From contig NZ_OOHJ01000030.1 in the NCBI RefSeq assembly GCF_900323885.1, positions 682,001 through 746,000 of the forward strand: a stretch of DNA of 64,000 bases, given 5' to 3'. Position numbers and translations under genes: made by a program. This document shows, in pieces, positions 24,921 to 56,258 of the stretch. Below the pieces are notes generated by a model, which did no database searches, was not told the DNA's origin, and worked only from the letters and a program-made list of their open reading frames with translations. The DNA is from [Actinomadura] parvosata subsp. kistnae. Its GTDB lineage: Bacteria > Actinomycetota > Actinomycetes > Streptosporangiales > Streptosporangiaceae. Within the stretch, counting starts at the first letter, position 1, and the number at the start of each line of letters is the position of its first letter.

Positions 24921-24989
24921 GTCAGTGCCTCTCTGGAACGTCGGCGGTGATGTGCCGATGCCCGGCGGGCGCCCGGAGCAGCGGGCCGG

Positions 24990-26450: not shown

Positions 26451-26500
26451 TGCGTCGCCTCCTGTGATGCTCTCGGTGATGTCCGGCGTGACCTCAGCGG

Positions 26501-37990: not shown

Positions 37991-38419
37991 TCAGTCAGGC
38001 AGCAACTCGCTGAGCAGTTTCTCCACTCGGGAGCGGATGTCGTCACGGATGAGGCGGACGGTGTCGATGCCTTGGCCTGCCGGGTCGTCGAGCTTCCAGT
38101 CCTCATACCGTTTGCCGGGGAAGATCGGGCAGGCGTCGCCGCAGCCCATGGTGATGACCACGTCGGAGGCCTCGACCGCGTCGACGGTGAGAACCTTGGG
38201 CCGGGCGGCGGTGATGTCGATGCCGGCCTCGGCCATGGCCTCGACGGCGGCCCGGTTGACCTCCTCGGCCGGCGCGGAGCCGGCCGAGCGGACCTCGATC
38301 CGGTCGCCGGCCAGGTGGGTGAGCCAGCCGGCGGCCATCTGGGAGCGTCCGGCGTTGTGGACGCAGACGAACAGGACGGACGGCTTGCCGGCGGGGGTCT
38401 CGGCGGCGTTCTCAGGCAT
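37991..38419 (-). CDS. arsC: Thioredoxin-coupled arsenate reductase ArsC
   Basis: A 142-residue low-molecular-weight-phosphatase-fold arsenate reductase. The P-loop is CVHNAGRS with nucleophile Cys19. The two further redox cysteines lie in MGCGDACP (Cys93 and Cys97), as in the Staphylococcus/Bacillus type that hands electrons from thioredoxin. It converts arsenate to arsenite. It lies 120 bp downstream of the molybdoenzyme gene on the same strand in an arsenic-themed group. Confidence 0.93.
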   Translation of the reverse strand: MPENAAETPAGKPSVLFVCVHNAGRSQMAAGWLTHLAGDRIEVRSAGSAPAEEVNRAAVEAMAEAGIDITAARPKVLTVDAVEASDVVITMGCGDACPIFPGKRYEDWKLDDPAGQGIDTVRLIRDDIRSRVEKLLSELLPD

Positions 38420-38539
38420 GGGCAGGCTCCTTGGCGATGAACAGGCGGCCAGGCTGACGTAGGCCGAGGTCCTGATGCGGGAGACGGCCCTCGCTTCGGA
38501 CGCAGGGAGCGCCGCCGCGCCATCGGGACAGGCAAGAGG

Positions 38540-41038
38540 TCAGGGCACCTTCCGGAGTCTGCAGGCGAAGCACTTGTACGCCTGCTGCCCCGAAAGGTTG
38601 TCATAGAACTGGTCGTCCACCAGCGTGTTGGCCGCCTCGTAGTGGGGATCGCCGAAGATGTCGCCCACTTTCTGCGCAGGTCCGAACGTGTTGGGCAGGA
38701 ATATGGTGTCGGTCCGGATGCCGGGCTCGATGAGGGCGGTGCCGGTCACCGCGCCGCGCGGGCTCTCCACCAGCACCGCGTCGCCGTCGGCGATGCCGTA
38801 CCGGGCGGCGGTGTCGGGATGGATCTGGATCAGGCGGATCCCGTTGAGCTGCTCGCCGGTGTACGTCCAGTGCGTCACTCCGGCGAAGTGCACGACGCTG
38901 GGGCGGCCGGTCATGCCCATCAGCGGATATCGCCGGTGCACCCGCCCGTCTCCGGGGGTGCCGAGCCGGACGGGCCGGGTCAGCGCATGAGGATTGACGG
39001 GGTTGGTGACGAACGCGTCGCCGTAGGTCAGCGTCGGGTGCGCGCCGGTCACCTCTGGGTGGGTGAAGAACACGGGAAGCGCGCCGTGCCCGCTGGGCGC
39101 GAGCCGGCTCTCCAAGGCGGTGGTGAAGATCTCCACCTTGCCGCTGGGGGTGAGGAACCGGTTGCCGGAGCCGAGCGAGCGGGCGGCCTGGTACCAGGAG
39201 GGATGATCGAGGTAGAGGGTGCTCACGCCTGGATGCCCGGTGGCGGGGCAGGGCCAGCGCAGCGGCTCGGTGCGGGCGCGCAGGCGGTCGCGGGTCATGC
39301 CGGCGGCGCTGGGGGTGTTGGCGACGAAGGCGGCCCACAGCTTGTTGTAGTCGGTCCATTCGAGAGGGAGGGCGTCCGTCCAGTACGCCGGCGGGTGCCG
39401 GCGGTCGTTGCGCGCGAGCGCGTGTGCCAGCCCGATGAAGATCTCGGTGTCGGAGCGTGATTCGCCGACTCTGGGCACGGCGGCGTCCTGCCAGCGGATG
39501 GCGCGGTCGTCACGCCGCATGTAGACGCCCTCGAACTCCATGCCGCTGCACACCGGCAGGATGACGTCGGCGTAGTGGGCGGCCTCCTCCATGAACAGCC
39601 CTGTGTAGACGTAGAAGTCCAGCTTCTCTAACGCGCGGCGGACCTTGCCGGTGTTGGCCGAGCTGATGAGGGGGTTGCCTTCGGTCATGACGGCTCGCAG
39701 CCGGTACGGCCGTCCGGTGAGAATGGCGTCGGCGAACGCGTCGGGGCCGACGGGGAGGGCCGGGCCGGGTTCGGGGACTCCGGCCTTCAGCGGAGGCAGG
39801 CCGAGCTCGCCGGGCCAGGTGTTGTGCATGAAGTTGCAGCCGCCGCCCGGCACGCCGACGTTGCCGGTGATCGCGGCCAGCATCGCGATGGCCCGGTAGG
39901 TGTCGAACGCGCCGAGCTGGTGTGAGATCCCGGCGTTGCAGAAGATCGCCGCCGGCTTCGCCGTGGCGTACTCCCTGGCGATCCGGCGGATCGTGGTGGC
40001 CGCGACCCCGGTCACCCCGGCGGCCCACTCCGGTGTGTAACCCTTGCCTGTCACGTGATCGCGGAGCTCCTCGAAGCCCACCACCCACTGGCGGACGAAG
40101 GCCCGGTCGTGCAGCTCCTCGCTGATGACCTCGTGCAGCATGCCGAGGACAAGGGCGAGGTCGGTGTGCGGTTTGGGCGCGATCCAGTCGTCCGCGAGCG
40201 CGCCGGTGGGCGTGCGCCGGGGATCTACCACGACCAGCCGGGCACGGGTGCGCTGCCGGGCCCGCAAGAGGTAGGCGAAGGTGACGGGGTGCGTCTCCGC
40301 CTGGTTGGTGCCGAGCATCAGCAGGTAGCGGGCCGCCCCCAGGTCTTCCCTGCCGGTGGTGGGATCGACGCCGTACCCGTTGGTGAAATTGCCCAGCCCG
40401 AACGTCACCGCGAGCGCGTTGCCGCCCGCATCGTTGCACACGGGGCCGACGTCGGTGTCGTTCGGGCTGCCGAGCAGGCTGAACAGGCGATGTGCCAGCG
40501 CGCCGGCGCCGCGCGGCATGCGCCCTGTGGTGCGGTTGGCGATCGCTCGCGCCTCCCCGCTGTCGCGCAGGTCGAGGAATCGGGTGGCGATGAGGTCGAG
40601 TGCCGTGTCCCAGGTCACGGGCTCGAACCGGGAGTCCGGGTCTCCCTTCGCCCCGCCGGTCCGGCGCAGCGGGCTGGTCAGCCGCAGCGGGTTGTAGGCC
40701 AGTTGCGGCATCATGGAGGCCTTGACGCACAGGTTGCCGTCCTGGACGGGGTCCGCCCGCTCCCCGCGTACATCGATGATCCGGCCGGCCTTCATCCGGA
40801 TCTCCAGCCGGCAGTCGCAGTTGCAGAACTGGCAGGCGCCCGCCACCGTCCTGTCCGGTCGCAGGGCCGCGGAGCCTTCGGTGAAGTCGGGCATCGACGC
40901 GTCGCCCGTCGCGGGCGCGGCCTGCGCGGCGTACGGGACGAGGGTGGGCAGTGCGCCCGCGATCGCGCCCGTCCCGCCCAGGACCGCTCCCCGCAGCACC
41001 GACCTGCGCGAAGGAGGATCGGGTCGTGGCTCGTTCAT
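38540..41038 (-). CDS. Tat-exported molybdopterin oxidoreductase
   Basis: An 832-residue DMSO-reductase-superfamily enzyme. SRRSVLRG at residues 10-17 is a twin-arginine signal. The iron-sulfur motif is C69-x2-C72-x3-C76 with a fourth Cys at 104, so a [4Fe-4S] cluster is expected. MLGTNQAETHPV is a bis-MGD binding segment like that of nitrate reductases, and VGPVCNDAGGNA may give the Mo ligand Cys. No beta subunit gene is adjacent. Nitrate reductase-like or arsenic-oxidoreductase activity are both possible; the neighbours arsC and arsR favour an arsenic role (inference). AAGGA precedes ATG 41038. Confidence 0.88.
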   Translation of the reverse strand: MNEPRPDPPSRRSVLRGAVLGGTGAIAGALPTLVPYAAQAAPATGDASMPDFTEGSAALRPDRTVAGACQFCNCDCRLEIRMKAGRIIDVRGERADPVQDGNLCVKASMMPQLAYNPLRLTSPLRRTGGAKGDPDSRFEPVTWDTALDLIATRFLDLRDSGEARAIANRTTGRMPRGAGALAHRLFSLLGSPNDTDVGPVCNDAGGNALAVTFGLGNFTNGYGVDPTTGREDLGAARYLLMLGTNQAETHPVTFAYLLRARQRTRARLVVVDPRRTPTGALADDWIAPKPHTDLALVLGMLHEVISEELHDRAFVRQWVVGFEELRDHVTGKGYTPEWAAGVTGVAATTIRRIAREYATAKPAAIFCNAGISHQLGAFDTYRAIAMLAAITGNVGVPGGGCNFMHNTWPGELGLPPLKAGVPEPGPALPVGPDAFADAILTGRPYRLRAVMTEGNPLISSANTGKVRRALEKLDFYVYTGLFMEEAAHYADVILPVCSGMEFEGVYMRRDDRAIRWQDAAVPRVGESRSDTEIFIGLAHALARNDRRHPPAYWTDALPLEWTDYNKLWAAFVANTPSAAGMTRDRLRARTEPLRWPCPATGHPGVSTLYLDHPSWYQAARSLGSGNRFLTPSGKVEIFTTALESRLAPSGHGALPVFFTHPEVTGAHPTLTYGDAFVTNPVNPHALTRPVRLGTPGDGRVHRRYPLMGMTGRPSVVHFAGVTHWTYTGEQLNGIRLIQIHPDTAARYGIADGDAVLVESPRGAVTGTALIEPGIRTDTIFLPNTFGPAQKVGDIFGDPHYEAANTLVDDQFYDNLSGQQAYKCFACRLRKVP

Positions 41039-41058
41039 GGCTGTCCTTCGCAGAGGGG

Positions 41059-42189
41059 TCAGCAGTCGCCGCCGCAGCCGCAACTTGGGGCCGACGGATC
41101 AGGAGCGGCGAGGCGGTGCACCGGCAGCGGGTAGGCGGGCTGGAAAGCCCGCTCACCGGCGCGCCGCTCGACCTGCGCGGCGGCGGCCTCGGTGGCCTCC
41201 CGCACCGCGGCGTCGACGGCCTCGTCCAGTTCGCCGGGCTTGCACGCGACGCGCGCGTTGATCCGGGCCTCCGCCTCGGGCAGCGGCCCCGGAGCCGGGC
41301 CGTCCGCCACGGGCGCTCCCCCGGCGCGGGTCAGGCTGAGCCTCGTGAGGACGCCCGGAGCGTGCAGGCTCACCTTGGCGTGGCCGACGGTCCAGCCCAT
41401 CCGAAGGGCGGTCCGGGACAAGTGCTCCAGCAGCGTACGTGCCCACAGGTCGCCGTCGAGACCTTCGTCCGCGCGCACCACGAGGGTCTGATTCAGCCAG
41501 GCGAGCGCGGCCTCGGCCCGGGCGTAACGGTTGTAGTCGATCTCCACGTTGCGCGGCGCGGGCGGCTCGCCCAGCCAGGCGTTCATCAGCTGGTCGAGCC
41601 CTCTGCCCGATCTCGCCGAGTACCCGACCACCGTCGCGGCGGGGTACCGGACATGCAGGTCGTCGAGGGTGTCCCTGATCGTGTCCGGGTCGAGGAGGTC
41701 GATCTTGTTCAGTGCGATGACGTCGGCCTCTTCGAGCTGCTTGCCGAAGAGGTAGGAGAGGTCGGCGTCCCCGTTGTGCGCGGCGGTCTCGCGCAGGGCC
41801 GCGAGCCGCTCCGGATCGACGACCGTCATGAGCGAACCGGCCGTGAAGGTGTCGCCGTAGTACCTCCGGAGCGGCCGCAGGACGGTCGCCTGCAAGTCGG
41901 CGCAGCTGCCCACCGCCTCCGCGAGCAGCGTCTCGACCCGGTGGTTGTCGATCAGCTCCCGCGCCACGTCGAGGAGATCGTCGAAGCGGCAGCAGAAGCA
42001 GCCGCCCGTGACCTCCCCGGCCTCGCTGGAGGCGGATCGGGCCAGCCGGGTGTCGACGAGGTCGCTTCCCTGATCGTTCGTGATCACCGCCACCCGTTCG
42101 CCGTTCGTCCGCAGGCGCCTCGCGACCTCGACGAGCGTGGTGGTCTTGCCGGCTCCGAGAAAGCCGCTGAGCGTCATGAATTCAATCAT
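41059..42189 (-). CDS. CobW/P47K-family GTPase (metal chaperone)
   Basis: A GTPase of about 376 residues. The P-loop is GFLGAGKTTT (residues 9-18), the family metal motif GCFCC has Cys64, 66 and 67, and NKIDLLDPD serves base recognition. The C-terminal domain ends in SCGCGGDC, an extra Cys-rich metal-binding tail. Such G3E GTPases deliver zinc, cobalt or other metals to client enzymes. It lies 20 bp upstream of the molybdoenzyme gene and probably belongs to its operon, so it might serve maturation of that enzyme or metal homeostasis under arsenic stress. Confidence 0.9.
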   Translation of the reverse strand: MIEFMTLSGFLGAGKTTTLVEVARRLRTNGERVAVITNDQGSDLVDTRLARSASSEAGEVTGGCFCCRFDDLLDVARELIDNHRVETLLAEAVGSCADLQATVLRPLRRYYGDTFTAGSLMTVVDPERLAALRETAAHNGDADLSYLFGKQLEEADVIALNKIDLLDPDTIRDTLDDLHVRYPAATVVGYSARSGRGLDQLMNAWLGEPPAPRNVEIDYNRYARAEAALAWLNQTLVVRADEGLDGDLWARTLLEHLSRTALRMGWTVGHAKVSLHAPGVLTRLSLTRAGGAPVADGPAPGPLPEAEARINARVACKPGELDEAVDAAVREATEAAAAQVERRAGERAFQPAYPLPVHRLAAPDPSAPSCGCGGDC

Positions 42190-42281
42190 TTTGCTCGCCT
42201 CACTGACCGATGCTTTTGTCGCACGATAACGACGGACCGAGCGGCCGATCAAGCCGTTCAATTACATGGCCGTCTAATTAG

Positions 42282-42638
42282 CTATCCGGGCAGGAGCACA
42301 GCCGTTCTGGCCTGCCCGTCCAGCAGAATCGACAGCTCGGCCAGCTTTTCCGGCACGGCTCGATAATGGATCCAGGTGCCTTGGCGCCGGCTTTCGATGA
42401 GGCCCGCCTTGCGCAGCACCTTCAGGTGGTGCGAAATCGTGGGCGCCGCCAGGTCGAAGGCCTTCGTCAGGTCGCACACGCACGGCTCCCCGTAAGCGGC
42501 GATCATCGATATCAGCTCAAGTCGTACGGGGTCGCCCAGGGCCTTGAACACCTCGGCGAGACTGCCGGCCTCACGGCTGGTCAGCGGTGGTACGGGGGCG
42601 GAGATCCGGCAGACGGCGGTGACATCAGGCTCCAGCAC
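42282..42638 (-). CDS. arsR: ArsR-family metalloregulator
   Basis: A 118-residue winged-helix repressor. The alpha-3 metal motif reads EPCVCDL with Cys53 and Cys55, the classical As(III)/Sb(III) site. The recognition helix is in APTISHHLKVLRKAGL. It should repress the CobW-molybdoenzyme-arsC unit and possibly the divergent PiT gene until arsenite binds. Start GTG 42638 is tentative. Confidence 0.92.
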   Translation of the reverse strand: MLEPDVTAVCRISAPVPPLTSREAGSLAEVFKALGDPVRLELISMIAAYGEPCVCDLTKAFDLAAPTISHHLKVLRKAGLIESRRQGTWIHYRAVPEKLAELSILLDGQARTAVLLPG

Positions 42639-43870: not shown

Positions 43871-44041
43871 CCGACGGCGGGAGGGGTGCCATCAGGCGTC
43901 CTTTCCGCCCGCCCGCGTTATCGCGGAAAATTCGTTGTGCTTCGTGGCGGCCGGCGACATCGACGCCCGCCGAAAGAAACATCGAACAAGTGCCTGCGGG
44001 ATAAAATACCGATCCTCCGAATAATGGCGAAGGGCATTGTC

Positions 44042-44795: not shown

Positions 44796-45932
44796 GTCCG
44801 GGCGTGGGCGCCGCCACCGCCGACCTCGCGTCCGGTGGCCGTTCCCCTCTACCAGACCTCGACCTTCGCCTTCGAGGACCCCGACGCCTGCGCGGAAGGG
44901 CTGCGTCATCCCGACCGCGGCTACTCGTACACCCGGCATTCCAACCCCACCACCAGGGCCCTGGAGACGGCCGTCGCCGATCTGGAAGGCGGCGTCGCGG
45001 CGCTCGCGACCGCCTCCGGCATGGGAGCGATCAACGCGGTGCTGCTGGCCCTGCTCCGTTCCGGTGACCACCTCATCGTGCAGCGGCGCGTGTACGGCGG
45101 CACCCAGAGCGTGCTCATGCGCCTGGCGGAGCGCTTCGGCGTCGCCGTCACGCGAATCTCGGGTGCGGACGCCGGTGAGCTGGCCGCCGCGGTCAGACCG
45201 GAGACCAGGCTCCTCTACCTGGAGACGATCGCCAATCCGACGACCGAGGTCGCCGACCTGCCCGCGCTGCTGGCGGCGGGCCGGGCGGCCGGGCTGGTCT
45301 GCGTGGTGGACAACACCTTCGCCACCCCGATGTTGTGCCGGCCGATCGAGTACGGCGCGGACGTGGTCGTGCATTCGGCCACCAAGTACCTGGGCGGCCA
45401 CGACGACGTGGTCGCGGGCTTGGCCGTCTTCGCCAGCCGTGACGTGCACGAGCGGGTGTGGCACCTCGCGGCGGACCTGGGTGCGGTGGTGGATCCGTTC
45501 GCGTCCTGGCTGGTTCTGCGCGGGCTGAAGACGCTCGCCCTGCGCGTGGAACGCCACTGCGAGAACGCCGGCCGCCTGGCGCACCTGCTGGAGGGGCATC
45601 CTCGGGTCGCCCACGTGCGCTGGCCGGGGCTGCCCAGCCATCCGAGCCACGCCGTGGCGCGGCGGATCCTCGACGGCTATGGCGGGGTGTTGTCGTTCGA
45701 GGTGGACGGCGACGTGCGCGCGTTCCTCGTCCGGCTGCGCTGCGCGGAGCTGGCGACGTCCCTGGGCGGCCCGCAGACTCTGGTGCTTCATCCGGCGACG
45801 ACCTCGCACCGGGAGCTCGACGAGGCTGAGCTTCGCGCCGCGGGGATCAGCCCTGGGACGCTCCGCGTCTCCGCCGGTCTGGAGCACCATGAGGATCTTC
45901 TGGCCGACTTCGCCCAGGCTCTCAAGGCGTAG
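44772..45932 (+). CDS. Cys/Met-metabolism PLP enzyme (cystathionine gamma-synthase/lyase type)
   Basis: A 386-residue fold-type I trans-sulfuration enzyme. SYTRHSNPTT and ASGMGAINAVL bind the cofactor phosphate, DNTFATPML holds the Asp that contacts the pyridine nitrogen, and HSATKYLGGH carries the PLP Lys. Family reactions include gamma-synthesis, gamma-elimination (methionine lyase) and sulfhydrylation. It is translationally coupled to the 2OG amino-acid hydroxylase. Its end overlaps the convergent regulator gene by 11 bp. Confidence 0.92.
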   Translation: MTHPQTRAVRAWAPPPPTSRPVAVPLYQTSTFAFEDPDACAEGLRHPDRGYSYTRHSNPTTRALETAVADLEGGVAALATASGMGAINAVLLALLRSGDHLIVQRRVYGGTQSVLMRLAERFGVAVTRISGADAGELAAAVRPETRLLYLETIANPTTEVADLPALLAAGRAAGLVCVVDNTFATPMLCRPIEYGADVVVHSATKYLGGHDDVVAGLAVFASRDVHERVWHLAADLGAVVDPFASWLVLRGLKTLALRVERHCENAGRLAHLLEGHPRVAHVRWPGLPSHPSHAVARRILDGYGGVLSFEVDGDVRAFLVRLRCAELATSLGGPQTLVLHPATTSHRELDEAELRAAGISPGTLRVSAGLEHHEDLLADFAQALKA

Positions 45933-46902
45933 CGGCCTCGTCCACGAGGGAGTCCCCCAGCGGGGTCCGCCGGTAGAGGACGCGATACCCGGCGCGCGAC
46001 CGGTCGAGCAGCCCGGCCTCGCGCAGCACCGCCAAGTGATCGCCCACGGTGCCGACGGACAGGCGCAGACCGGCCGCGAGCTGGCTCGTGGTGGCCGGCT
46101 CGCGCAGCTCGTCCAGCAGCCGGGCGCGGGTCCTGCCCATGAGCCTGGCCAGCGCGGACAGGCGGTCGCCTGTCGAGGGCTCGAAGGCGGAGCGGTGCCC
46201 GGCCGGGTAGACGAGGGTGCAGGGCCACGGCTCGTCGGCGTAGACGGCGAAACCGGGCCAGACGAAGGCGCTCGGCACGAGGAGCAGCCCACGTGGCGCG
46301 GTGAGCCGGTCGTCGGGAGCGCAGCGGGCCAGCTCAAGACCTCCTGCTCGCCACCGGATCCGCGGGTGCAGGTCGCCCAGGGTCTTGGCCCATCCGGCGC
46401 GCCCGAGCATCGCGGCGTGGGCGGTGACGTCCCGTTCGTAGGCGGAGCGGATACGGGGCCAGTGCGGAGCGAGCAGGCGGTCCCACGCGTGGGCGAGCGC
46501 GTCGGCGATCACCTCCACGATCTCCGCGCCGGCGAGCGTCGCGCGGATGCCGGCGTCCGTGACCGGGCGGGCTTCCAGGCAGGCCCTGATCTCCTCCCGG
46601 GCCAGCGCCAGCGGCGTGGCGCGGACGGCCGCCAGATCGTCGGCGAAGGTCTGGGCCATGCTGTGCGGCGGCGGGGTGATGAAGCCGGCGTGGTACGTGC
46701 CGCCCTGCAACGCGAGCAGCACGGCGCATCCGGCATGCTGCCGCAGCTCGTCGTAGGCGGGCGAAAGGCGGCGTACCCAGGTCTGGGCGGGGTATCCGCG
46801 GGACCTGCCGCTGAGCACCCGGAGCACGCCCATGAGCTCGAACAGCGGCGACACGGCGAAGCGGCTCGTGGCCAGCTCCTCCGACGACAGCTCTATCCGC
46901 AT
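45922..46902 (-). CDS. ArsR-type winged-helix regulator with DUF5937-like N terminus
   Basis: A 326-residue protein whose last 80 residues form a winged helix (TSQLAAGLRLSVGTVGDHLAVLREAGLL). The long N-terminal part, beginning MRIELSSEELATSRFAVSP, is typical of a common actinobacterial repressor group. It follows the MoaD-like gene after 51 bp in the same direction and may regulate the BNR-MoaD end of the operon or the dioxygenase-PLP pair it converges with. Confidence 0.82.
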   Translation of the reverse strand: MRIELSSEELATSRFAVSPLFELMGVLRVLSGRSRGYPAQTWVRRLSPAYDELRQHAGCAVLLALQGGTYHAGFITPPPHSMAQTFADDLAAVRATPLALAREEIRACLEARPVTDAGIRATLAGAEIVEVIADALAHAWDRLLAPHWPRIRSAYERDVTAHAAMLGRAGWAKTLGDLHPRIRWRAGGLELARCAPDDRLTAPRGLLLVPSAFVWPGFAVYADEPWPCTLVYPAGHRSAFEPSTGDRLSALARLMGRTRARLLDELREPATTSQLAAGLRLSVGTVGDHLAVLREAGLLDRSRAGYRVLYRRTPLGDSLVDEAATP

Positions 46903-46953: not shown

Positions 46954-47256
46954 TCAGCCGCCGGCCATGGCGCCGACGATGAGGAAGGGCTCCACCCCGG
47001 TGCGGATCATGCTGGGCAGCGGGCTGTCCGGCGGGTCGAAGGACACGTCCTCCCCGCAGGCGAAGAACTTGACGAGCGCTCTGCGCCGGCCCGTGCTCTG
47101 GTCGCGGATCGTCCCGCGCAGCATGGGGTAGCTCGCTTCGAGCGCGTCCAGCAGCAGGCGCTGGGTGGCTCCTTCTTCGCCGTCGAACTGCAGCGTCACT
47201 TCGCCGTTGACGCTCGCGAGGCGGCGCAGGTGAGTGGGGAGCACGACCCGGATCAT
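46954..47256 (-). CDS. MoaD/ThiS-like ubiquitin-fold protein ending in Gly-Gly
   Basis: A 100-residue beta-grasp protein. The C terminus GAMAGG ends in the Gly-Gly needed for adenylation and thiocarboxylate formation in sulfur carriers. The LRRLA and [11 protein letters not shown] segments fit a MoaD/ThiS fold. No E1-like adenylating enzyme is in the window. Its ATG overlaps the BNR-protein stop (ATGA). MoaD-like plus BNR-repeat pairs are, from memory, a recurring actinobacterial combination of unknown function. Confidence 0.85.
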
Positions 47257-48374
47257 GGCAGGGTCTGCGCTTCCACGGAGAGCACGGCGGGCAGGTGGGC
47301 GGCGACGGCCTCCCAGGAGTCGCCCTCGTCGGCCGAGGCGAACACCTGGCCCCCGGTCGTGCCGAAGTAGACGCCGCAGGGGTCGAGGGAGTCGACGGTC
47401 ATCGCGCCGCGGAGCACGTTGACGTAGCAGCGGTCCTCCGGAAGGCCCTTGGTGAGCGGCTCCCACTCGTGGCCGCCCGTGCGGCTGCGATAGACCCGCA
47501 GCTCGCCGTCGAGGGGATAGTGCTCCGACTCGCTCTTGATCGGCACGACGTAGACGGTGTCGGGCTCGTGCGCGTGGACCACGATGGGGAAGCCGAAGGC
47601 GGCGGGCAGGTCTCCGCTGATGTCCTCCCAGGAGTCGCCGCCGTCATCGCTACGGTCGACGTCCCAGTGCTTCTGCATGAAGAGCACGTCGGGACGCGAG
47701 GGATGCGTCGCCACCCGGTGCACGCAGTGGCCGACCTCGGCACGGGGGTCCGGCAGGTCCCGCGAGTACAGGCCGCGGTTTCTCGGTTCGAAGGTGATCC
47801 CGCCGTCGTCGGATCGGAACAGGCCCGCGGCGGAGACGGCGGCGAAGATCCGCTCCGGGCGGGTGGGGTCCAGGACGACGGTGTGCAGGCACAGCCCGCC
47901 GCCGCCCGGCTCCCAGGTCTGTGCCGACTCGTGCTCCCGCAGCGCCGTCAGCTCCGTCCAGGTGTGGCCGCCGTCCGACGTGCGGAACAGGGCCGCGTCC
48001 TCGACCCCCGCGTACACCGTGTCCGGGTCGGTCGGGGACGGCTGGAACTGCCACACCCGTGCGAACTCCCAGCGATGCGGGGTGGCGTCGCCCCAGTGCC
48101 AGCGGTGGGTGCCGGGCGGGCTCTGGTAGCCGAAGTCGTTGCCCACCGGACGCCAGGTCTCGCCGCCGTCGTCGGAGCGCTGGACCACCTGGCCGAACCA
48201 CCGCGTCGACTGGGAGGCGTACAACCGTCGCGGGTCGGCGGGCGAGCCCGTGATGTGGTAGATCTCCCAGCCCGGGAAGTGCGGGCCGGTGATGTCCCAC
48301 TGCCGGCGCGCGGCGTCCGAGGTCATCACGAAGGCGCCCTTGCGGGTGCCCACCAGCAGGCGTATCCGGCTCAT
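47253..48374 (-). CDS. BNR/WD40-YVTN-type beta-propeller protein
   Basis: A 373-residue propeller with repeated Asp-box motifs: [39 protein letters not shown] and SADEGDSW. There is no signal peptide. Related sequences are often called exo-alpha-sialidase, but the RIP motif and the catalytic Arg triad of sialidases were not recognised, so an enzyme activity is not claimed. Both ends overlap their neighbours as ATGA, so it is cotranslated with the hydroxylase and MoaD-like genes. Confidence 0.85.
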
Positions 48375-49399
48375 CGGGCTCCTCCCACGGGCGACAGGGC
48401 CTGGGCGTCCAAGGTCCGGGAGAACGTCCGGTCACCTGCTCGCGTGCGCAGGACCACCTGCGTGCTCCCGGCCTCGTCGTGCCGCACCTGAACGGTCCGC
48501 TCCCCCGTCCAGCCCGCGAACCGGAACTCGCCGGCGCCTCGGTGGACGAGCCCGTAGACAGGCTCGCCGTTCACGTACAGGCCGAGCCCGCCGGCGTGCC
48601 GGTCGACACTCGCCGGCACGCCGGGCTGATCCTCCAGGAACGCGCCTTCCGGCTCCTCCCACGAGCGGAACGACTCCGGCAGCGTGAAGCGGCACCGGAG
48701 CCTCTCCAGCGCGTCGCGGCCCAGCGGAGCCGCCTCCGGCTCGAAGATCGTGCTCCGGTGCACGGCCGCGCCGTGGAAGACGGGCGGGAAGAGGGCCAGC
48801 AGCGCGGGCGTGACCAGCGAGTCGATGACGAGGTGGACGCGCACGTCGGTGCCCGTGTTCTCGACCATGTGGCCGCGGGTGAAGTCGGCGTACCAGACGG
48901 TGCCCGGCGGCCAGCAGTGGACCTCGCCGGCGATCGTCAGCGTCGCCTCGGGCATCGTCACGATGGGGACGTGCAGCCGCACCGACCCCCAGGGCAGCCC
49001 GACCTTGGTGTCGCTGTGCAGCGGCGTACGCGCGCCGGGACCGAGCGCCATCAGCCGCACGGACGCCAGTCGCGCCGGGATCGCCTTCAGCACCTCGGCC
49101 AGATGGGGCAGCCGGGCCAGCCACGGGGTGTCGGCGAAGTCCGCCAGGTCCGGTCCCCCCGCGTCCCCCCGATCACCGTCGCCGCCGATGCTCCGCAGCG
49201 GCACGGTCCTCCAGTCGAGCTTCGTGGCGTAGTCGCCCAGCCCGTCGCCCGACACGATGCGGATCTCCTTCCAGGCCGTCGCCTTCACCTGGTCGAGGTC
49301 TTCGAGCAGGCGCGCGATGTCGAAGGAGAGGTCCAGCTGAGCGGTCGGCGGCAGTGTCGCCAGGATGGGCGCCTGTGGCCAGGGATCGACGGCTGACAT
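48371..49399 (-). CDS. Aspartyl/asparaginyl beta-hydroxylase-like 2OG oxygenase
   Basis: A 342-residue protein. Its central domain (about 100-200) has the cupin features of AspH-type oxygenases: HSDTKVG with His128, RGHMVEN with His177 as second iron ligand, and Arg187 in VRVHLVID for 2-oxoglutarate. The C-terminal 140 residues are of unknown fold. It lies 24 bp behind the P450 gene in the RiPP operon. The precursor MRYRH has no Asp or Asn, so Arg, His or a later intermediate may be the target, or a free amino acid (inference). Confidence 0.85.
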
Positions 49400-49423: not shown

Positions 49424-50566
49424 TCAGCGTGGACGAGCTGTGACGAACATGTGGTTCAGGCCGCGCAGCGTGCCTGTGGGACGTTGCACCGGCGGCTCGG
49501 CGAGGGTGAGGCGGTAGCGCTCGGAGAGCTGGGTGAGCACCGGCATGTGCAGCGACTGGGCGAGGTGCGCGCCGATGCACGCGTGCACGCCCTTGCCGAA
49601 GCCCAGATGGGGGTTGGACTCCCGGGTGAAGTCGAGGTCGTCCGGCCGGCTGAAGACGGCCGGGTCCCGGTTCGCCGCGGCGGGCACGAGGAGGACCTCC
49701 GTGCCCCTGAGGATCTCCTTGCCGCCGAGCGTGACCGTCTCGGCGCAGCCGCGCGTGTCCACCTGCACGGCGCCGGAGTGGCGGATGAGCTCGTTGTAGA
49801 CCTGGTTGCTCACCTTGAGCGGCTCGTCGAGGTTGAGCAGGTTCCGTTCGACGAGGGTGCGGGTGATGCAGCTCAACGTGCTGCTGGAGGAGAGGAACCC
49901 GGCGACGAACATCTGCCGGAGGGCGTTGAGCACGTAACCCGTCAGCGGGCCCGTCCTGCCGAAGTCGACGTGCGCGAGCAGGCCGGTCGGAGGGGGGTTG
50001 ATCGCGTACGGCGCCAGGACGCTGGTGCAGTACCGGCGGGCCTCGACGCCCGGCTCCAGCAGATCCGGGTTGAGCCCGAAGTCCATGCTCAGCACCAGGC
50101 GGCGCTGGGCTTCGTGGAACTTGGCCTCGTCGCCGAAATGGGGGATGCCGAAGAACAGGCACATGCTCCTGAGCGCGAGCGGCTCGTTGAACTGCTTGAC
50201 GTAGTCGAAGCGCTCGAGGTTCACCTCGGCGAGCAGCTCGTCCGCGACCCTGGAGCAGTCCTCGATCCACGCGGGCATGTCGATGTTCCGCATGGCCTCG
50301 ATGAGCAGGTGCCGGACCTCGGTGTGCTCGGGGGCGTCCAGCGTCTGCAGCCCCAGGATGTCCTCCGGAGCCTCCTCGCCGATCTTCCGGTAGTCGTTGA
50401 TGAACGTCTCCGGGTCCCCGAGGATGCGGATGCAGTCGGCGTGCCTGGTGACGATCCAGGCGTTGAGCTGCTCGTGCCAGTGGACGGGGTCCTCGCGCTG
50501 CAGGTGCCGGTACACCGAGTAGGGGTCGGCGAGCATGCTCGGCGAGATGGGTGAGAAGATCTCCAC
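49424..50566 (-). CDS. Cytochrome P450, probable peptide biaryl crosslinking enzyme
   Basis: A 380-residue bacterial P450. The heme loop is FGKGVHACIG with axial Cys330. The I-helix reads FVAGFLSSSSTL, lacking the usual acidic residue-Thr pair, a feature also seen in P450s that form radical crosslinks rather than insert oxygen. GTG 50566 is preceded by CCCGGAG. It lies 17 bp after the ATP-grasp gene and downstream of the MRYRH gene. In biarylitide clusters the only dedicated enzyme is such a P450, which joins the Tyr and His side chains of M-R-Y-x-H. I infer the same role here. Confidence 0.85.
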   Translation of the reverse strand: MEIFSPISPSMLADPYSVYRHLQREDPVHWHEQLNAWIVTRHADCIRILGDPETFINDYRKIGEEAPEDILGLQTLDAPEHTEVRHLLIEAMRNIDMPAWIEDCSRVADELLAEVNLERFDYVKQFNEPLALRSMCLFFGIPHFGDEAKFHEAQRRLVLSMDFGLNPDLLEPGVEARRYCTSVLAPYAINPPPTGLLAHVDFGRTGPLTGYVLNALRQMFVAGFLSSSSTLSCITRTLVERNLLNLDEPLKVSNQVYNELIRHSGAVQVDTRGCAETVTLGGKEILRGTEVLLVPAAANRDPAVFSRPDDLDFTRESNPHLGFGKGVHACIGAHLAQSLHMPVLTQLSERYRLTLAEPPVQRPTGTLRGLNHMFVTARPR

Positions 50567-50583: not shown

Positions 50584-51969
50584 TCAGACGACGAAGACGG
50601 GGCCGCAGCCGCCGTTCTTGACGCGGCGGCTCGGACGCCCGAACGGCGGGCTCTTGCGGACGATGGCCGCGGGCACGGCGGCGCCGACCGCGAAGTAGCC
50701 GTAGTCCACATATGTCGGCTCGCTGACCAGCGAACCGTCCTTGATGATGGAGGCCATGGTCGGGTGTGACCTCGCGATCCGCTGCACCATCCACGCCTCG
50801 CCGGCGGCCACGGCCTCGTCCAGCGCCGCCAGCCAGCGTGCGGAATCGGTCTCGCAGCCGATCGTCACGCCGCGGCCTCCGTACCCGGCGCCGGGCTTGA
50901 GCACCAGGGACTCGCGGTGGTCCGCGCACCACTTCAGCAGGTCCACGCGACGGCCGTCGACGTCGGCCGGGACGTCCTCGATGACCCGCGTCCACGGCAC
51001 GAACGTCGCGAGCACGTCCCGCAGCCGGGCCGGCAGCGTGCCCGCGTCCAGCTCCTCGGAGACGGTGGCGAGAATGGTCTTGTTGAGCGCGATGGCGTCG
51101 TCGAGATCGTCCACGATCACCACGCGTCCCGCGCGGCCCGCCTCCAGGATCGGCGCGAGCAAGGGGTAGTTGCCGATGGGGTCGGGCTCCTCACCGGCGA
51201 CCCGGTAGAGCAGGGAGCACCGTTCGCCCTTGTACGCCACCCCGCCGTCGCCGACGTCGAGGTCCTCGACGGCGGCCGCTTCGGCGCGCAGCCCGTGCCG
51301 CCGCAGCTCCTGGGAGAGACCGTGGCAGTCGTCGCACGGGCCCCCGAGATCCGCCTTGAACTCGATGACCAGGATGCGCGCCGCGGCCGGCGACTCCCCC
51401 GCTTCCACCAGCCGTTCCCGCAGGTAGGCGGCGAGCGTGGCGACCACGTCCGTGCGGTACGCATCCCGCTTGCGCAGGAAGTCGCCGATGATCAGCGACT
51501 GCTCGAAGAGCCGGCCCAGGATGTCGGCATCGGGCATGTAGCCGCAGGAGGAGCCGGCGTTGGGCTCCACCATGGTGAGGTCGTCGTCGTGGATGACCAC
51601 GTCGGGGCGGGCGATGGTCATCCAGCGCGGCCTGCGCGCCGGGTCGACGTAGCCGAACGTCGGCTCCTCCAGCCGCAGCGCCTGCGCCAGCCGGTGCCAG
51701 GATCCGCGCAGGCGGCCGTCGAAGATCAGGTCGAGCGCCTCCTGGAAGGCCCGATGGCAGCGCGCGAAGCGCTCGGCCACCTCTTTCGGCAGCAGCGCGG
51801 GGGGCACCGGCATGCGTTCGCCGACACAGCAGCTCAGGCGGCTGTCGCGGAGCCCGGACAACGCGTCGCCGGCGTCGTCGAAGTATTCCGCCAGCTCGGT
51901 GGCGTGCTCCCGCGCGTACGCCTGCATCTCGGAATTCAGCGCGTTGATTCGCTGCTCTAACGTCTGCAC
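50584..51969 (-). CDS. ATP-grasp ligase
   Basis: A 461-residue protein with the ATP-grasp nucleotide loop SLVLKPGAGYGGRGV in the last third, and NAGSSCGYMPDAD earlier, a layout reminiscent of glutathionylspermidine-synthase or circularly permuted ATP-grasp proteins. Such enzymes activate a carboxylate as acyl phosphate and join it to an amine or thiol. GTG 51969 follows GAGGAGAG; a longer in-frame reading to 52056 would overlap the hairpin. Being between precursor and P450, it could cap, extend or cyclise the peptide (inference). Confidence 0.83.
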   Translation of the reverse strand: MQTLEQRINALNSEMQAYAREHATELAEYFDDAGDALSGLRDSRLSCCVGERMPVPPALLPKEVAERFARCHRAFQEALDLIFDGRLRGSWHRLAQALRLEEPTFGYVDPARRPRWMTIARPDVVIHDDDLTMVEPNAGSSCGYMPDADILGRLFEQSLIIGDFLRKRDAYRTDVVATLAAYLRERLVEAGESPAAARILVIEFKADLGGPCDDCHGLSQELRRHGLRAEAAAVEDLDVGDGGVAYKGERCSLLYRVAGEEPDPIGNYPLLAPILEAGRAGRVVIVDDLDDAIALNKTILATVSEELDAGTLPARLRDVLATFVPWTRVIEDVPADVDGRRVDLLKWCADHRESLVLKPGAGYGGRGVTIGCETDSARWLAALDEAVAAGEAWMVQRIARSHPTMASIIKDGSLVSEPTYVDYGYFAVGAAVPAAIVRKSPPFGRPSRRVKNGGCGPVFVV

Positions 51970-52006
51970 CGGCTCTCCTCGACGGATCTCGTGCTTTTTA
52001 CGCCGT

Positions 52007-52044
52007 CCCCTGTCCGGCCGTGACACGCGCCCGGCGGACAGGGG
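52007..52044 (-). promoter_or_regulatory. Hairpin between precursor and ATP-grasp gene
   Basis: CCCCTGTCCG (52007-52016) and CGGACAGGGG (52035-52044) pair perfectly over 10 bp with an 18-base loop that can extend the stem. It lies about 40 bases after the MRYRH stop codon. No U-tract follows, so it may be an attenuating or mRNA-stabilising element that keeps precursor output above enzyme output, as in other RiPP operons. Confidence 0.6.
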
Positions 52045-52086
52045 GCGGCCGTTCATTTGTCAGGTCATTTTCCGGCGTGTCTCACT

Positions 52087-52104
52087 TCAGTGGCGGTAAC
52101 GCAT
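52087..52104 (-). CDS. Five-codon RiPP precursor gene, peptide MRYRH (biarylitide type)
   Basis: ATG CGT TAC CGC CAC TGA on the minus strand encodes Met-Arg-Tyr-Arg-His. A perfect Shine-Dalgarno AAGGAGG (52117-52111) stands six bases upstream. Known biarylitide precursors are 18-bp genes such as MRYYH, in which a P450 links Tyr-3 and His-5 and the N-terminal Met-Arg is removed. This peptide fits M-R-Y-x-H at every fixed position, with Arg as variable residue. Its operon contains a P450. No leader peptide is needed. Predicted product: a crosslinked Tyr-Arg-His tripeptide, possibly modified further. Gene too short for normal gene callers. Confidence 0.85.
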   Translation of the reverse strand: MRYRH

Positions 52105-52110
52105 GGTCCA

Positions 52111-52117
52111 CCTCCTT
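52111..52117 (-). promoter_or_regulatory. Perfect ribosome-binding site of the pentapeptide gene
   Basis: AAGGAGG read on the minus strand, with spacer TGGACC before ATG 52104. It is stronger than the sites of most neighbouring genes and is the main evidence that translation starts at this ATG rather than upstream in the same frame. Confidence 0.85.
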
Positions 52118-52207: not shown

Positions 52208-53458
52208 TCAGCAGCGGACGCAGCAACGGCCGGCGCCCGCCTCCACGGCCTGCTGGTGGCGTTCTGCCCACAGCTCGTCCACCGCCGGGTCAGGGTGGGT
52301 CCAGTCGTAATGGAAGCCACGGTCGATCAGCTCGACGCCGTCCAGCCAGCCCGATCCGAGGAGGGGCGACCCTTTGTAGAGCAGCAGCCTGGTCTGGCGT
52401 GCGGTGGGGTCCACCGAGGCGGCGATCCCGGTCTCTTCGAGGAAGCTCTCCAGCGCCCGGATCTCCTCCAGGCCGACCCAGGGGGTGAAGGTGATGAACG
52501 AGGGGCGCAGCTCGAAGCCGGTCGCCTGCGCCACCCGGATGGCCTGCTTGATGCCGGGCACGTCGATGCCCTTGTCGAAGATCCGCAGCAGCTTGTCCGA
52601 CGGGAATTCCAGGGCGGAGGTCACCACCCGCAGGCCGAGCTCGGTCATCCGGCCGAGCTCGGCCTCGAACTCGAGGATGTGGTCGAAGCGGGTGGTGATC
52701 TCGAACGTCACCGGCCCCAGCCGCTCGGCCACCGCCTCCATGGCGGTCAGCGCGTGGCGGCGGGTGTTGAAGAACTCGGCGTCGACGAAGACGAAGTGCC
52801 CGGCGCCCTGCGCGGCGAGCTGCGTGGCGTCGGCGAGGATGACGTCCGGGTCGATCGGGATGGCCGTGACCCCGTAGGAGGCGTAGACGGCGCAGTAGCT
52901 GCAGCGGTGATGGCAGCCTCGGGTCGCCTCGATGTTGCCCATCAGCCCGAACTTCGTGGTGTGCGCCGGGTAGTCGGTGAGCGGCGGGAACAGGTCACGG
53001 GCGGGCACCTGCCACTGCCGTGCCGCATGCCGCTTGGGCCTGACCCGCGAGCCCCCGGTGATGACGCCGCCGAGCTCGCCGGGCGTGACCTCGCCACGAG
53101 CGCAGGCGACCAGGTCCGCGGCCATGCCCTCGGGCTCGTCCACGATCACGCCGTCGGTGACGGCCGACAGAGCGGCCGCGTTGAGCCAGGCGTACTGGCC
53201 GAAGGCGAGCACGCGCCGCGCTCCCGCGGCCTTGAACCGGGCGGCCAGGTGCGCGCCCGCTTCGATTCCCTCGAAGGAGGGGATCGAGATCAGCACCAGA
53301 TCGAAGCCGCCGCCGGGAAAGTCGAGGGGAAAGCCGCCGGCGTCCCACCCGGTCACTTCGGCGCCGGCGCCCCGCAGGGAGCCGGCGGCACTCGCGGCCA
53401 GAACCGGCTGCAACTCGGCTTCGAAAGCCGAAACAACTGCGATGGACGGACCGCTCAT
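52208..53458 (-). CDS. Radical SAM enzyme with B12-binding-like N terminus and RCCVRC tail
   Basis: A 416-residue protein. Residues 1-150 form a Rossmann-like, cobalamin-domain-type region. The radical SAM cluster motif is C182-x3-C186-x2-C189 in TRGCHHRCSYC. The protein ends in RCCVRC, three cysteines in the last five residues. Short Cys tails define some known radical SAM groups (as I recall, CUAEP/CCAEP-tail and RCCLKC-tail families; ArsL of arsinothricin biosynthesis may be related). ATG 53458 has AAGGGAGG upstream. It precedes the pentapeptide gene by 103 bp. Peptide or heteroatom chemistry is possible; the substrate is unknown. Confidence 0.85.
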   Translation of the reverse strand: MSGPSIAVVSAFEAELQPVLAASAAGSLRGAGAEVTGWDAGGFPLDFPGGGFDLVLISIPSFEGIEAGAHLAARFKAAGARRVLAFGQYAWLNAAALSAVTDGVIVDEPEGMAADLVACARGEVTPGELGGVITGGSRVRPKRHAARQWQVPARDLFPPLTDYPAHTTKFGLMGNIEATRGCHHRCSYCAVYASYGVTAIPIDPDVILADATQLAAQGAGHFVFVDAEFFNTRRHALTAMEAVAERLGPVTFEITTRFDHILEFEAELGRMTELGLRVVTSALEFPSDKLLRIFDKGIDVPGIKQAIRVAQATGFELRPSFITFTPWVGLEEIRALESFLEETGIAASVDPTARQTRLLLYKGSPLLGSGWLDGVELIDRGFHYDWTHPDPAVDELWAERHQQAVEAGAGRCCVRC

Positions 53459-53576: not shown

Positions 53577-54872
53577 TCAGGATTTGTTGGGCGCGGCCAT
53601 ACCGGCGGAAATGTCATCCGCAACCACGCCCGGCGTCGGCAGCAGCGCCCTCTTCGGCAGCAACGGACCCGCCATCGCCGTGGTGATCAGTGCCATCAAC
53701 ACCATGAGTGTGAACATGGCGCCGTCCAGGACACCGAGGCTGACCCCCACATTGAGAATGATCAGTTCGGTCAGGCCCCGCGTGTTCACGAGGATGGCCA
53801 AGGTCCCCGACTCGCGCCGGCTCATCCCGGAGATCAGGGCGGGCCCGGCCGCGCCCAGCATCTTCCCGGCGCAGGCCACCAGCACGATGGCCGCCAGCTG
53901 CAGGTATTCACCGCCGGTCAGGGCACTGATGTCGACGCTCAGCCCGGTGACGATGAAGAACACCGGCATGAGGATGAGGCTGACGTTGGCGAGCGGCACC
54001 CTCAGCCCTTGCCGCAGCACCTCGGCGGGCTCGCGCGGCATGGCGACCCCGAAGGCGAATGCCCCGAAGATGGGATGGATCCCGATCAGCGTGGTGGCGT
54101 ACGACGAGATGAGCACGCCGGCGCACAGCACCACCACCAGGAACGGCGAGACGCGCTCCTGAGCCCACCGGCCGATCACCGCCTTCAGCAACGGACGTAC
54201 CAGCAGGGCCATCACCAGGACGTACGCGGCGGCGAGGCCCGCCGTCCGCAGGAAGCCGGCGAGATCCCCCGACGTGGCGAGTGCCGCCACGAGTGCCAGC
54301 AGACACCAGGCCAGGACGTCGTCGATCGCGGCGCTCGCCAGCGCCAGGGCTCCGGCCCGGGTGAACATGAGCCAGTTGTCGGCCAGGATCCTGGCCAGCA
54401 CGGGGAACGCCGTGATCGACATCGCGGTCCCGAGGAAGAGGGCGAACGCGGCCAGCGACACGCGTTCGCCGTTGACCACCGCGTGGTGCTCGTACAGCAC
54501 GAGACCCAGGGCCACGCCCAGGCCGAAGGACAGGGCGATCGAGGACAGGGAGACCGCGGCGGCCGTCTTCTTCTGACTGCTGATCAGCTTGTGCTCGAAC
54601 TCCCAGCCCACCCCGAACATGAAGAACAGCAGCCCTACCTGGGCGATCATCTTCAGGTGCGGGCGCGCCTCGTCCGGGAAGATCACCCGCGTGGGGTCGC
54701 CCGGCAGCAGGCCGAGCAGGCTCGGACCGAGCGCGATGCCCGCGAGGATCTCGCCGATGACGGTGGGCTGGCGGAACCTGGTGACCAGCCGTCCCAGGAC
54801 GGCTCCGACGACGAGGATCAGCGCGACGTCGGCGATGACCACGGCGCCGACGAGTTCACTGCGGTCGTGCAT
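53577..54872 (-). CDS. Cation:proton antiporter (CPA2/Kef type)
   Basis: A 431-residue membrane protein with about 12-13 helices. The family core motif is FGVGWEFEHKL after helix 3, and the ion site lies around AIDDVLAWCLLA, with two consecutive Asp as in electrogenic CPA2 antiporters. No C-terminal TrkA-N domain is present. It lies 27 bp downstream of the MFS exporter gene on the same strand. Such antiporters are common in antibiotic clusters, where they may support export or self-protection. Confidence 0.9.
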   Translation of the reverse strand: MHDRSELVGAVVIADVALILVVGAVLGRLVTRFRQPTVIGEILAGIALGPSLLGLLPGDPTRVIFPDEARPHLKMIAQVGLLFFMFGVGWEFEHKLISSQKKTAAAVSLSSIALSFGLGVALGLVLYEHHAVVNGERVSLAAFALFLGTAMSITAFPVLARILADNWLMFTRAGALALASAAIDDVLAWCLLALVAALATSGDLAGFLRTAGLAAAYVLVMALLVRPLLKAVIGRWAQERVSPFLVVVLCAGVLISSYATTLIGIHPIFGAFAFGVAMPREPAEVLRQGLRVPLANVSLILMPVFFIVTGLSVDISALTGGEYLQLAAIVLVACAGKMLGAAGPALISGMSRRESGTLAILVNTRGLTELIILNVGVSLGVLDGAMFTLMVLMALITTAMAGPLLPKRALLPTPGVVADDISAGMAAPNKS

Positions 54873-54899: not shown

Positions 54900-56258
54900 T
54901 TACCTGGTCTCCGTGGGACGAGGGGTACGTACGAGGCTCGGGTCGTCCGTCTCTGTCCGGACCCTCGTCGCGGGCCGCGCATTGCCGGTGCCCGAGCAGG
55001 AGCACGGGGCGCCGGCCACCTGCTTGAGCGGCACCGCCAGGGCCCGCCCGACGAGGACGACCCCGAGCACCGCGGCGACACCGCCGCTCAGTGCTATCAC
55101 CGTGGCGACCGGTACGGCCAGTGCCACCGCCCCGGACACGGCCGGCCCGATCCCCTGCACGGTCATCAGCCCGGTGCTGCGCAGCCCGAAGGCGAGGCCG
55201 CGCTTGTCCTCCGGGACGGAGTCCACGAACCGCAGCTCAAGCCCGAGATCGTAGGCCAGGCCGATGCCGCTGAGCACGAGGAACGCGCCGATGACCGCCA
55301 CCGGCAGGTCGAAGAGCAGCGCGACCAGCGGCAGCCCCGCGACGAGGGGCAACCACAAGGTGAGCCGATCGCGCAACGTGACGTCGGTGACCTTCCCGAA
55401 CGCCAGGTTGCTCACCATCATGCCGACCGCCAGGCACGCGAGCAGCACGCCGGCGACGGAGGCCGGATGGCCGTTCTCGGCGGTGTACGGCACGATCAGC
55501 GCCTCCGCGCCCGTCACCAGCCCCGGCGGGATCCATTTGGCGAGCAGCAGCGTGAGCACGGACGAGGTCCCGAGCAGCTGGAAGTTCTGCCGCCAGCTGT
55601 CCGCGAACGTGGACAGCCTGCGGCCGGACGGCGGGGCGCCGGCCGGTGCGGGTGCGGCAGGCAGGTCGGGCAGCCCGATCCGGATCATCAGCACGCTGCT
55701 GAGGTGGAAGGCGGCGCTGAGCACGATGGTCGTCTCCGCGCCGAACGCGGCGACGCTGAAACCCGCCAGCGCGTTGCCGACGAGCTGGGCGGCCAGTGGC
55801 GCGCTGCACCACAACGCCCGTCCTTTGACGTAGTCGTCGCCGGCGAGCACCTCGGCCACCAAGCGGCTCGACGCGCCCTGGTAGAGCGGGGTCACCAGGG
55901 CGACCATCGCGACGAGGATCAGGCTCACGGCCACCGGTGGCCGCCCCAGCCCGATGACGAGCCCGACGCTCGCGTCGATGGCGAACAACGTCGTGAGCAG
56001 GGGCCTGGGACGCAGCCGGTCGGCGAGCGTGCCGAGCAGGCTGGAGCCGAGCATCTGCGGCACGAACGTGATGCTGTACGCGACGGCCGACCAGAGAGGC
56101 GATCCGGTGATGGCGAAGACCGAGACCGCCAGAGCGAGCGCCCGGACCGAGTCGCCGGTGACGGCGAGCGAACGGGTCAGGAAGAGCATGCGGAATGCGG
56201 GTTGCGCGAGCACGCGCCGATACGTCGAACGCTGCAGCCGATTACTGACCTCTGCCAT
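54900..56258 (-). CDS. MFS transporter, probable exporter of the cluster product
   Basis: A 452-residue, 12-helix carrier. Loop 2/3 reads GTLADRLRPRPL, and the sequence around AVSVFAITGSPLWSAVAYS resembles actinomycete drug-export MFS proteins. The hydrophilic C terminus contains a short APCSCSGTG segment. It is downstream of the StrR-type regulator gene with 110 bp between them and is the natural candidate for secretion of the finished peptide. Confidence 0.88.
   Translation of the reverse strand: MAEVSNRLQRSTYRRVLAQPAFRMLFLTRSLAVTGDSVRALALAVSVFAITGSPLWSAVAYSITFVPQMLGSSLLGTLADRLRPRPLLTTLFAIDASVGLVIGLGRPPVAVSLILVAMVALVTPLYQGASSRLVAEVLAGDDYVKGRALWCSAPLAAQLVGNALAGFSVAAFGAETTIVLSAAFHLSSVLMIRIGLPDLPAAPAPAGAPPSGRRLSTFADSWRQNFQLLGTSSVLTLLLAKWIPPGLVTGAEALIVPYTAENGHPASVAGVLLACLAVGMMVSNLAFGKVTDVTLRDRLTLWLPLVAGLPLVALLFDLPVAVIGAFLVLSGIGLAYDLGLELRFVDSVPEDKRGLAFGLRSTGLMTVQGIGPAVSGAVALAVPVATVIALSGGVAAVLGVVLVGRALAVPLKQVAGAPCSCSGTGNARPATRVRTETDDPSLVRTPRPTETR

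Follow-up and report, generated by a model that had tools for sequence, protein, structure and literature searches.

The window, a 64,000-nt stretch of [Actinomadura] parvosata subsp. kistnae DNA, contains on its minus strand an 18-bp gene for the pentapeptide MRYRH that is, with a probability we put at roughly 90%, the precursor gene of a biarylitide-type RiPP, whose core would be cross-linked and then hydroxylated and extended by a ligase. The features of the window that bear on this reading are listed here, with the basis of each assignment in parentheses.

37991..42638, minus strand: genes for an ArsC-like phosphatase-fold protein, a molybdopterin oxidoreductase, a CobW GTPase and an ArsR regulator (profile matches; synteny in relatives)
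45922..46902, minus strand: ArsR-type HTH regulator, DUF5937 (domain match; 83% in Nonomuraea solani)
47253..48374, minus strand: protein with BNR/sortilin-like repeats, whose gene overlaps the end of that for the hydroxylase (domain match; 90% in N. solani)
48371..49399, minus strand: aspartyl/asparaginyl beta-hydroxylase-type protein (PF05118; homologues at other biarylitide loci)
49424..50566, minus strand: biarylitide-clade P450 of predicted BytO type, 380 aa (PDB matches, tree, precursors of relatives)
50584..51969, minus strand: 461-aa protein with a GTG start, predicted ATP-grasp ligase with a glutathione/glutathionylspermidine synthetase fold (predicted structure; 86% homologue in N. 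solani, 52% in G127)
52002..52049, minus strand: GC-rich stem-loop between the precursor and ligase genes (folds here and in N. solani)
52087..52104, minus strand: bytA-type precursor gene, MRYRH (sequence; sole such ORF of the genome; conserved)
52111..52117, minus strand: Shine-Dalgarno AAGGAGG (sequence; identical in N. solani)
52208..53458, minus strand: ArsL-like radical SAM protein with the tail RCCVRC (NF040542, 410 bits; start codon and tail; neighbours of homologues)
53577..54872, minus strand: CPA2-type antiporter (PF00999; retained in N. solani)
54900..56258, minus strand: MFS transporter, possible exporter (PF07690; retained in N. solani)

Read directly, the gene (ATG-CGT-TAC-CGC-CAC-TGA) runs from an ATG at 52104-52102 to a stop codon ending at 52087, and a 6-nt spacer separates the ATG from the Shine-Dalgarno at 52117-52111; the minus-strand sequence over both elements is gtcAAGGAGGtggaccATGCGTTACCGCCACTGA. 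In the whole 13.56-Mb genome ATGMRNTAYNNNCAYTRA occurs once, at the MRYRH gene, as compared to no occurrence of the reversed control, and the same gene is the single genomic occurrence of the class ATG-(K/N/S/R/Q/H)-TAY-NNN-CAY-TRA, as it is of that class with GGAG in front. In 20 Mb of DNA simulated with an order-3 Markov model fitted to the window, no such ORF arose. N. solani has the same region, with cluster proteins ~84-92% identical to those of the window, and there the block of Shine-Dalgarno and ORF is identical at 38 of 38 positions; the spacers flanking this block are 71% and 74% identical and the third codon positions of the gene that follows the precursor 75%. A chance ORF is ruled out by the uniqueness in the genome, the simulation and the conservation in N. 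solani. The initial annotation, made from the sequence alone, had described a five-codon MRYRH gene with AAGGAGG six bases upstream, and the direct reading, the genome-wide search and the conservation confirm that this gene is real.

The cluster is conserved in two Nonomuraea species. It is partly conserved in G127 (locus L022), which belongs to a different genus of the same family; there MRYIH stands at the equivalent position behind a purine-rich AAAGGGA and precedes the same set of ligase, P450 and hydroxylase genes (52%, 43% and 54% identity to the window genes, respectively). Among these syntenic relatives position 4 differs (Arg or Ile) and Tyr3 and His5 are kept, a pattern that would be expected of a substrate for cross-linking. 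The MRYRH core itself is not unique to the genus, as two other genera of the family carry it, G292 (L042/L056, two copies) and G034 (L034/L055). The P450s adjoining these latter loci have Ala/His/Glu I-helix residues and are of a probable C-N type, and it may be that one and the same core receives two kinds of cross-link. The string MRYRH had no occurrence in the main texts of the mostly open-access papers searched, and it may have been reported elsewhere.

The P450 ORF (49424-50566) has a GTG start and lies 1,520 nt from the pentapeptide gene on the same strand. Among all PDB sequences it is closest to 9jv0/9jvf and 9jvj (E 1e-131 to 1e-132), followed by 22yx and entries for RufO and P450Blt (E 1e-69 to 1e-72); the remaining matches begin at 3e-30, a gap of ~40 orders of magnitude in E-value. 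Entry 9jv0 is almost identical to a P450 of G200 that adjoins a gene for MRYYH, the Planomonospora biarylitide precursor. The PDB codes for RufO (8SPP, 9DUJ, 9EBY) and P450Blt (8U2M) are those named in PMC12186263. A survey of 343 genomes of the family for relatives of this P450 gave 29 further loci (L024-L052), 25 of which have an 18-bp MxYxH/Y gene with a Shine-Dalgarno within 1.5 kb, one of them with a GTG start. With N. solani and G127, in which the ligase gene separates the pentapeptide gene from the P450, such genes are found near 27 of the 29 relatives, as compared to none of seven loci of other P450s from the same genome. The search of genome contigs with the P450 returned N. solani as its sole match. 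The survey also turned up a tandem pair of MRYIH genes behind a single P450 (L029), a candidate precursor VRYLH with a GTG start and a strong Shine-Dalgarno before a RufO-side P450 (L027, position 1360, and L054 in G137), and two loci with MRYWY-clade P450s (L049, L050) that have no pentapeptide gene within 1.5 kb, where one may lie further out.

In a maximum-likelihood tree the P450s of the window and N. solani join the MRYYH P450 and 9jv0 with support 100/99, and the G127 P450 joins this group with 100/100, apart from the other P450s of the genome. Taken together with the precursors of its relatives, this placement leads us to assign the window P450 to the biarylitide P450s, co-encoded with an 18-bp M-x-Y-x-H/Y gene that has its own ribosome-binding site. 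The initial annotation had inferred a biarylitide from the pentapeptide and from a P450 1.5 kb downstream in the same direction, and had proposed a search for 18-bp M-R-Y-x-H ORFs near relatives of that P450. Its reading gains support from the outcome of that search, from the P450 clade and from the retention of the pentapeptide in syntenic relatives (MRYRH in N. solani, MRYIH before the ligase-P450-hydroxylase set in the other genus). In P450Blt, His234 directs C-N bonding (PMC10929621); the corresponding residue is Val in the P450s of the window, N. solani, the MRYYH locus and G127, and also in 9jv0. For SavB, a C-C link was expected by similarity to Planomonospora BytO and was then found (PMC13417212). 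Because of this Val and the BytO/SavB precedent a C-C bond between Tyr and His is predicted, and by analogy the window P450 probably makes it.

The Planomonospora biarylitides (MRYYH, BytO; G200, 9jv0) share with the window the M-R-Y-x-H pattern, a strong Shine-Dalgarno and Gln and Val at the I-helix positions, and their type of P450 is the closest to that of the window outside the genus (54% identity). The Planomonospora precursor, however, stands directly before its P450, whereas the window has a ligase gene in between, more tailoring genes and Arg at position 4. The usual criterion for such clusters, a precursor within ~500 bp of the P450, is exceeded here by the 1,520 nt, although the criterion is not a defining one and the MRYWY clade is an exception to it. 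Among 277 biarylitide clusters, separation of precursor and P450 was described only for six MRYWY clusters (PMC13417212), and since the two genes are separated in the two Nonomuraea clusters and in G127, it seems that these three were outside that set or that the statement omits them. The MRYWY clade of Stackebrandtia nassauensis (PMC13417212) has a similar distance of ~1.4-1.5 kb, but its precursor lies downstream of the P450, its core ends in Tyr, sulfotransferases are common and its P450s form a separate clade of the tree. The 1.5-kb distance counts against the biarylitide reading, as does the charged Arg at position 4; the biarylitide P450 AchB did not accept Glu at that position, in a trial that did not extend to Arg (PMC13417212).

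The RufO P450 uses the same kind of pentapeptide (PMC13417212), and it is conceivable on that account that the window P450 nitrates Tyr3 and supplies nitrotyrosine rather than a cross-link. We find this scarcely credible: the P450 lies outside the RufO clade and its I-helix residues are unlike the A/H/E of RufO, grounds on which we reject a RufO-like nitration, and nitric oxide synthase was not found among the annotated neighbours. Very improbable, too, is a role for the ORF as a regulatory leader peptide of a ligase-P450 operon, with the stem-loop at 52002-52049 as its attenuator. The arrangement of a short ORF followed by a stem-loop is what such a leader would have, and the N. solani counterpart of the stem-loop folds as well, with a different loop. 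The residues of the ORF nevertheless fit the biarylitide motif, its P450 falls in the clade that acts on that motif, position 4 varies among relatives around a constant Tyr and His, and no T run of the terminator type was seen behind the stem. In both species the folding energies of the whole stretches were not beyond those of shuffled sequence, and the stem-loop is for this reason weak evidence of any kind; it is possible that it acts as a partial terminator or stabiliser, and possible that it controls the ratio of precursor to enzyme. A promoter scan found nothing.

The ligase gene (50584-51969) sits between the pentapeptide gene and the P450 gene. Its product has no Pfam match above cut-off, and its scores against the circularly permuted ATP-grasp families fall short of the gathering thresholds (18.2 bits for PF04174, gathering 23.1; 15.0 for PF14403, gathering 32). 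A single-sequence PDB search gave nothing useful. An AlphaFold2 model based on 18 full-length homologues (pLDDT 83, pTM 0.86), used in place of an earlier one from cropped homologues that was set aside (pLDDT 56), matches eukaryotic glutathione synthetases with Foldseek E-values down to 1e-16 and aligns to YgiC, YjfC and glutathionylspermidine synthetase with VIA-align Z of 23-26 over 356-374 residues at 3.5-4.0 A; the model thus has a full-length fold of the glutathione-synthetase type (VIA-align Z 21-26, ~350-410 residues). From the model, we regard the 461-aa protein as a ligase with this fold, a shared fold being no proof of reaction. Enzymes with the glutathione-synthetase fold take a short peptide or an acid, whose carboxylate they activate for coupling to an amine. 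Cp1B, which the model also matches, makes such an amide in E-64 biosynthesis (PMC12568646). The biarylitide clusters with a Pgm1 ligase (Asp4; PMC13417212) likewise have an ATP-grasp ligase beside the precursor, but the ligase of an MRYDH locus has PreAtp-grasp (PF18604, 1e-22). The matches of the window ligase, taken up to an E-value of 1, do not include this family, and the window ligase is probably of another type. Homologues at ~30% identity occur in G286 and G265, where homologues of the other cluster genes are absent around them.

Directly downstream of the P450 gene is that of the hydroxylase-type protein, homologues of which are found at the biarylitide loci of G127 (MRYIH), G292 (MRYRH), G213 (MRYLH) and G296 (MRYDH). 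The sav cluster of Saccharothrix variisporea (MRYVH) has a BytO-like P450 that makes a C-C link and an Asp/Asn beta-hydroxylase, savH, as the counterpart; it also has an amidinotransferase, where the window instead has an ATP-grasp ligase and a radical SAM enzyme, and its expression with the related hydroxylase gave the unmodified cross-linked peptide only (PMC13417212), which counts against the pathway proposed below.

In the biosynthesis that we propose, which has more steps than that of minimal systems with two genes, the ribosome would make MRYRH and the BytO-type P450 would join Tyr3 and His5 oxidatively with the loss of 2 H, most likely through a C-C bond. A protease encoded elsewhere would cut off Met-Arg to leave a cyclic, positively charged Tyr-Arg-His tripeptide; the lack of a protease gene near the cluster counts against this scheme. 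The Asp/Asn-hydroxylase-type oxygenase would hydroxylate the peptide, the glutathione-synthetase-like ligase would couple the tripeptide, presumably to an amino acid or an amine, through a further amide bond, and the MFS protein (54900..56258) may export the product. Our confidence is high that MRYRH is translated and then cross-linked between Tyr and His by the P450, and moderate for the C-C link, the removal of Met-Arg by a host protease, the hydroxylation and the extension by the ligase. What the analysis shows is the gene, how it is conserved, and the family or fold to which each enzyme belongs; from these we infer the cross-linking and its type, the order of steps, the partner of the ligase and export by the MFS protein. 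The initial annotation had described a minimal RiPP precursor with a P450, leaving out the ligase, radical SAM and hydroxylase-type genes, and had named a Tyr-Arg-His biarylitide as the product. The product class stands, but the cluster is not minimal: its ligase and hydroxylase-type genes make it probable that the bare cross-linked tripeptide is not the end of the pathway.

The radical SAM gene, which is retained in N. solani, lies 103 nt upstream of the precursor in the same direction. Its product aligns over its full length to the NCBIfam model for ArsL, NF040542, at 410.3 bits, and because the cut-off is 450 we term it ArsL-like only; it has the CX3CX2C motif as CHHRCSYC and a C-terminal RCCVRC (RCCLKC in the name of the model). 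According to the NF040542 model, ArsL is predicted to transfer the aminocarboxypropyl group of SAM to arsenite in arsinothricin biosynthesis, and enzymatic transfer of this group by ArsL is restated in a review (PMC12159101). ArsL-like genes are rare (five of 343 genomes of the family), and a possible amide-forming protein adjoins the gene in every locus read. The homologue in G071, at 447.6 bits, adjoins an ArsP_1 permease and a FemAB-like protein, and the ArsC-like, molybdopterin, CobW and PiT genes that accompany it are 80, 71, 50 and 61% identical to window genes at 38-44 kb. These arsenic-type genes of the window, 10-15 kb from the biarylitide genes, are possibly the arsenic half of the locus; in N. 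solani the molybdopterin, CobW, ArsR and PiT genes adjoin the biarylitide genes. Two further stretches were seen in this part of the window. A 2OG-Fe dioxygenase (43886-44731; PF10014, 89% in N. solani) adjoins the arsenic-type genes and could be part of the pathway. At 23712-31913, genes for an Fe-alcohol dehydrogenase, an aldehyde dehydrogenase and an ABC transporter are ~93% identical to genes by the G071 ArsL-like gene and were not found in the N. solani stretches compared; as G071 is another genus, this block looks, from its sequence, like a recent horizontal transfer.

It is possible, though doubtful, that the ligase couples the cross-linked tripeptide to an arsenic-containing amino acid similar to hydroxyarsinothricin, which would give an arsenic-bearing RiPP conjugate. 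By the correspondingly tentative route, the ArsL-like enzyme would move the 3-amino-3-carboxypropyl group of SAM onto arsenite and the ATP-grasp ligase would couple the product. Such a conjugate extends the biarylitide reading and does not oppose it. It draws on the position of the ArsL-like gene, its amide-forming neighbours, the company that it keeps in G071 and the occurrence of the molybdopterin gene in exactly those two of 55 genus genomes that have the radical SAM gene. The calculated chance of this last coincidence by random placement is 1 in 1,485, but both species share one inherited block and it is thus not independent evidence; the co-occurrence comes down to a block that two related species have in common, together with one other genus. 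All of this support is by genomic association, the ArsL score is below cut-off, the molybdopterin protein cannot be assigned clearly to arsenic chemistry, and a scan of genes surrounding the cluster found neither arsM, arsQ nor ArsP. The arsQML cluster of Burkholderia gladioli (PMC8552651) resembles the window in encoding a radical SAM protein of ArsL type whose tail is rich in Cys, and differs from it in having arsM and arsQ and in making arsinothricin, a free amino acid, with no precursor peptide gene. In G127, moreover, the ligase, P450, hydroxylase and MRYIH genes occur with no ArsL-like gene found at the threshold used, from which it follows that the ligase does not need the radical SAM enzyme. 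A different and rather unlikely role for this enzyme, with arsenic uninvolved, would be modification of the peptide itself, e.g., by an aminocarboxypropyl group on a side chain, as a histidine receives one in diphthamide. In favour of this role, the gene of the enzyme immediately precedes that of the precursor, the related G127 locus has a RiPP-type radical SAM C-methyltransferase (TIGR03975) nearby, and in G050 and G341 the radical SAM gene has a FemAB-like neighbour and no molybdopterin homologue accompanies it. The nearest described family nonetheless acts on arsenite, and homologues exist with no biarylitide P450 or precursor nearby. In the literature searched, "biarylitide" and "arsen-" came together in one database description only.

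We know of no biological role for the biarylitides, and those of their products that have been published are, to our knowledge, cross-linked tripeptides with little or no further modification. From the biarylitide cluster of the window it seems that the tripeptide may also serve as an intermediate, to be extended by a glutathione-synthetase-like ligase. The cluster also adds a second lineage with a precursor gene far from the P450, and because of this distance mining rules restricted to ~500 bp miss such precursors. Should the ArsL-like enzyme be part of the pathway, two rare branches of natural-product chemistry would be joined in it, and there would be a testable idea of what the peptide is for. 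The cluster is best read as a more elaborate variant of the known biarylitide RiPP family, with an arsenic-related lead that deserves a direct test.
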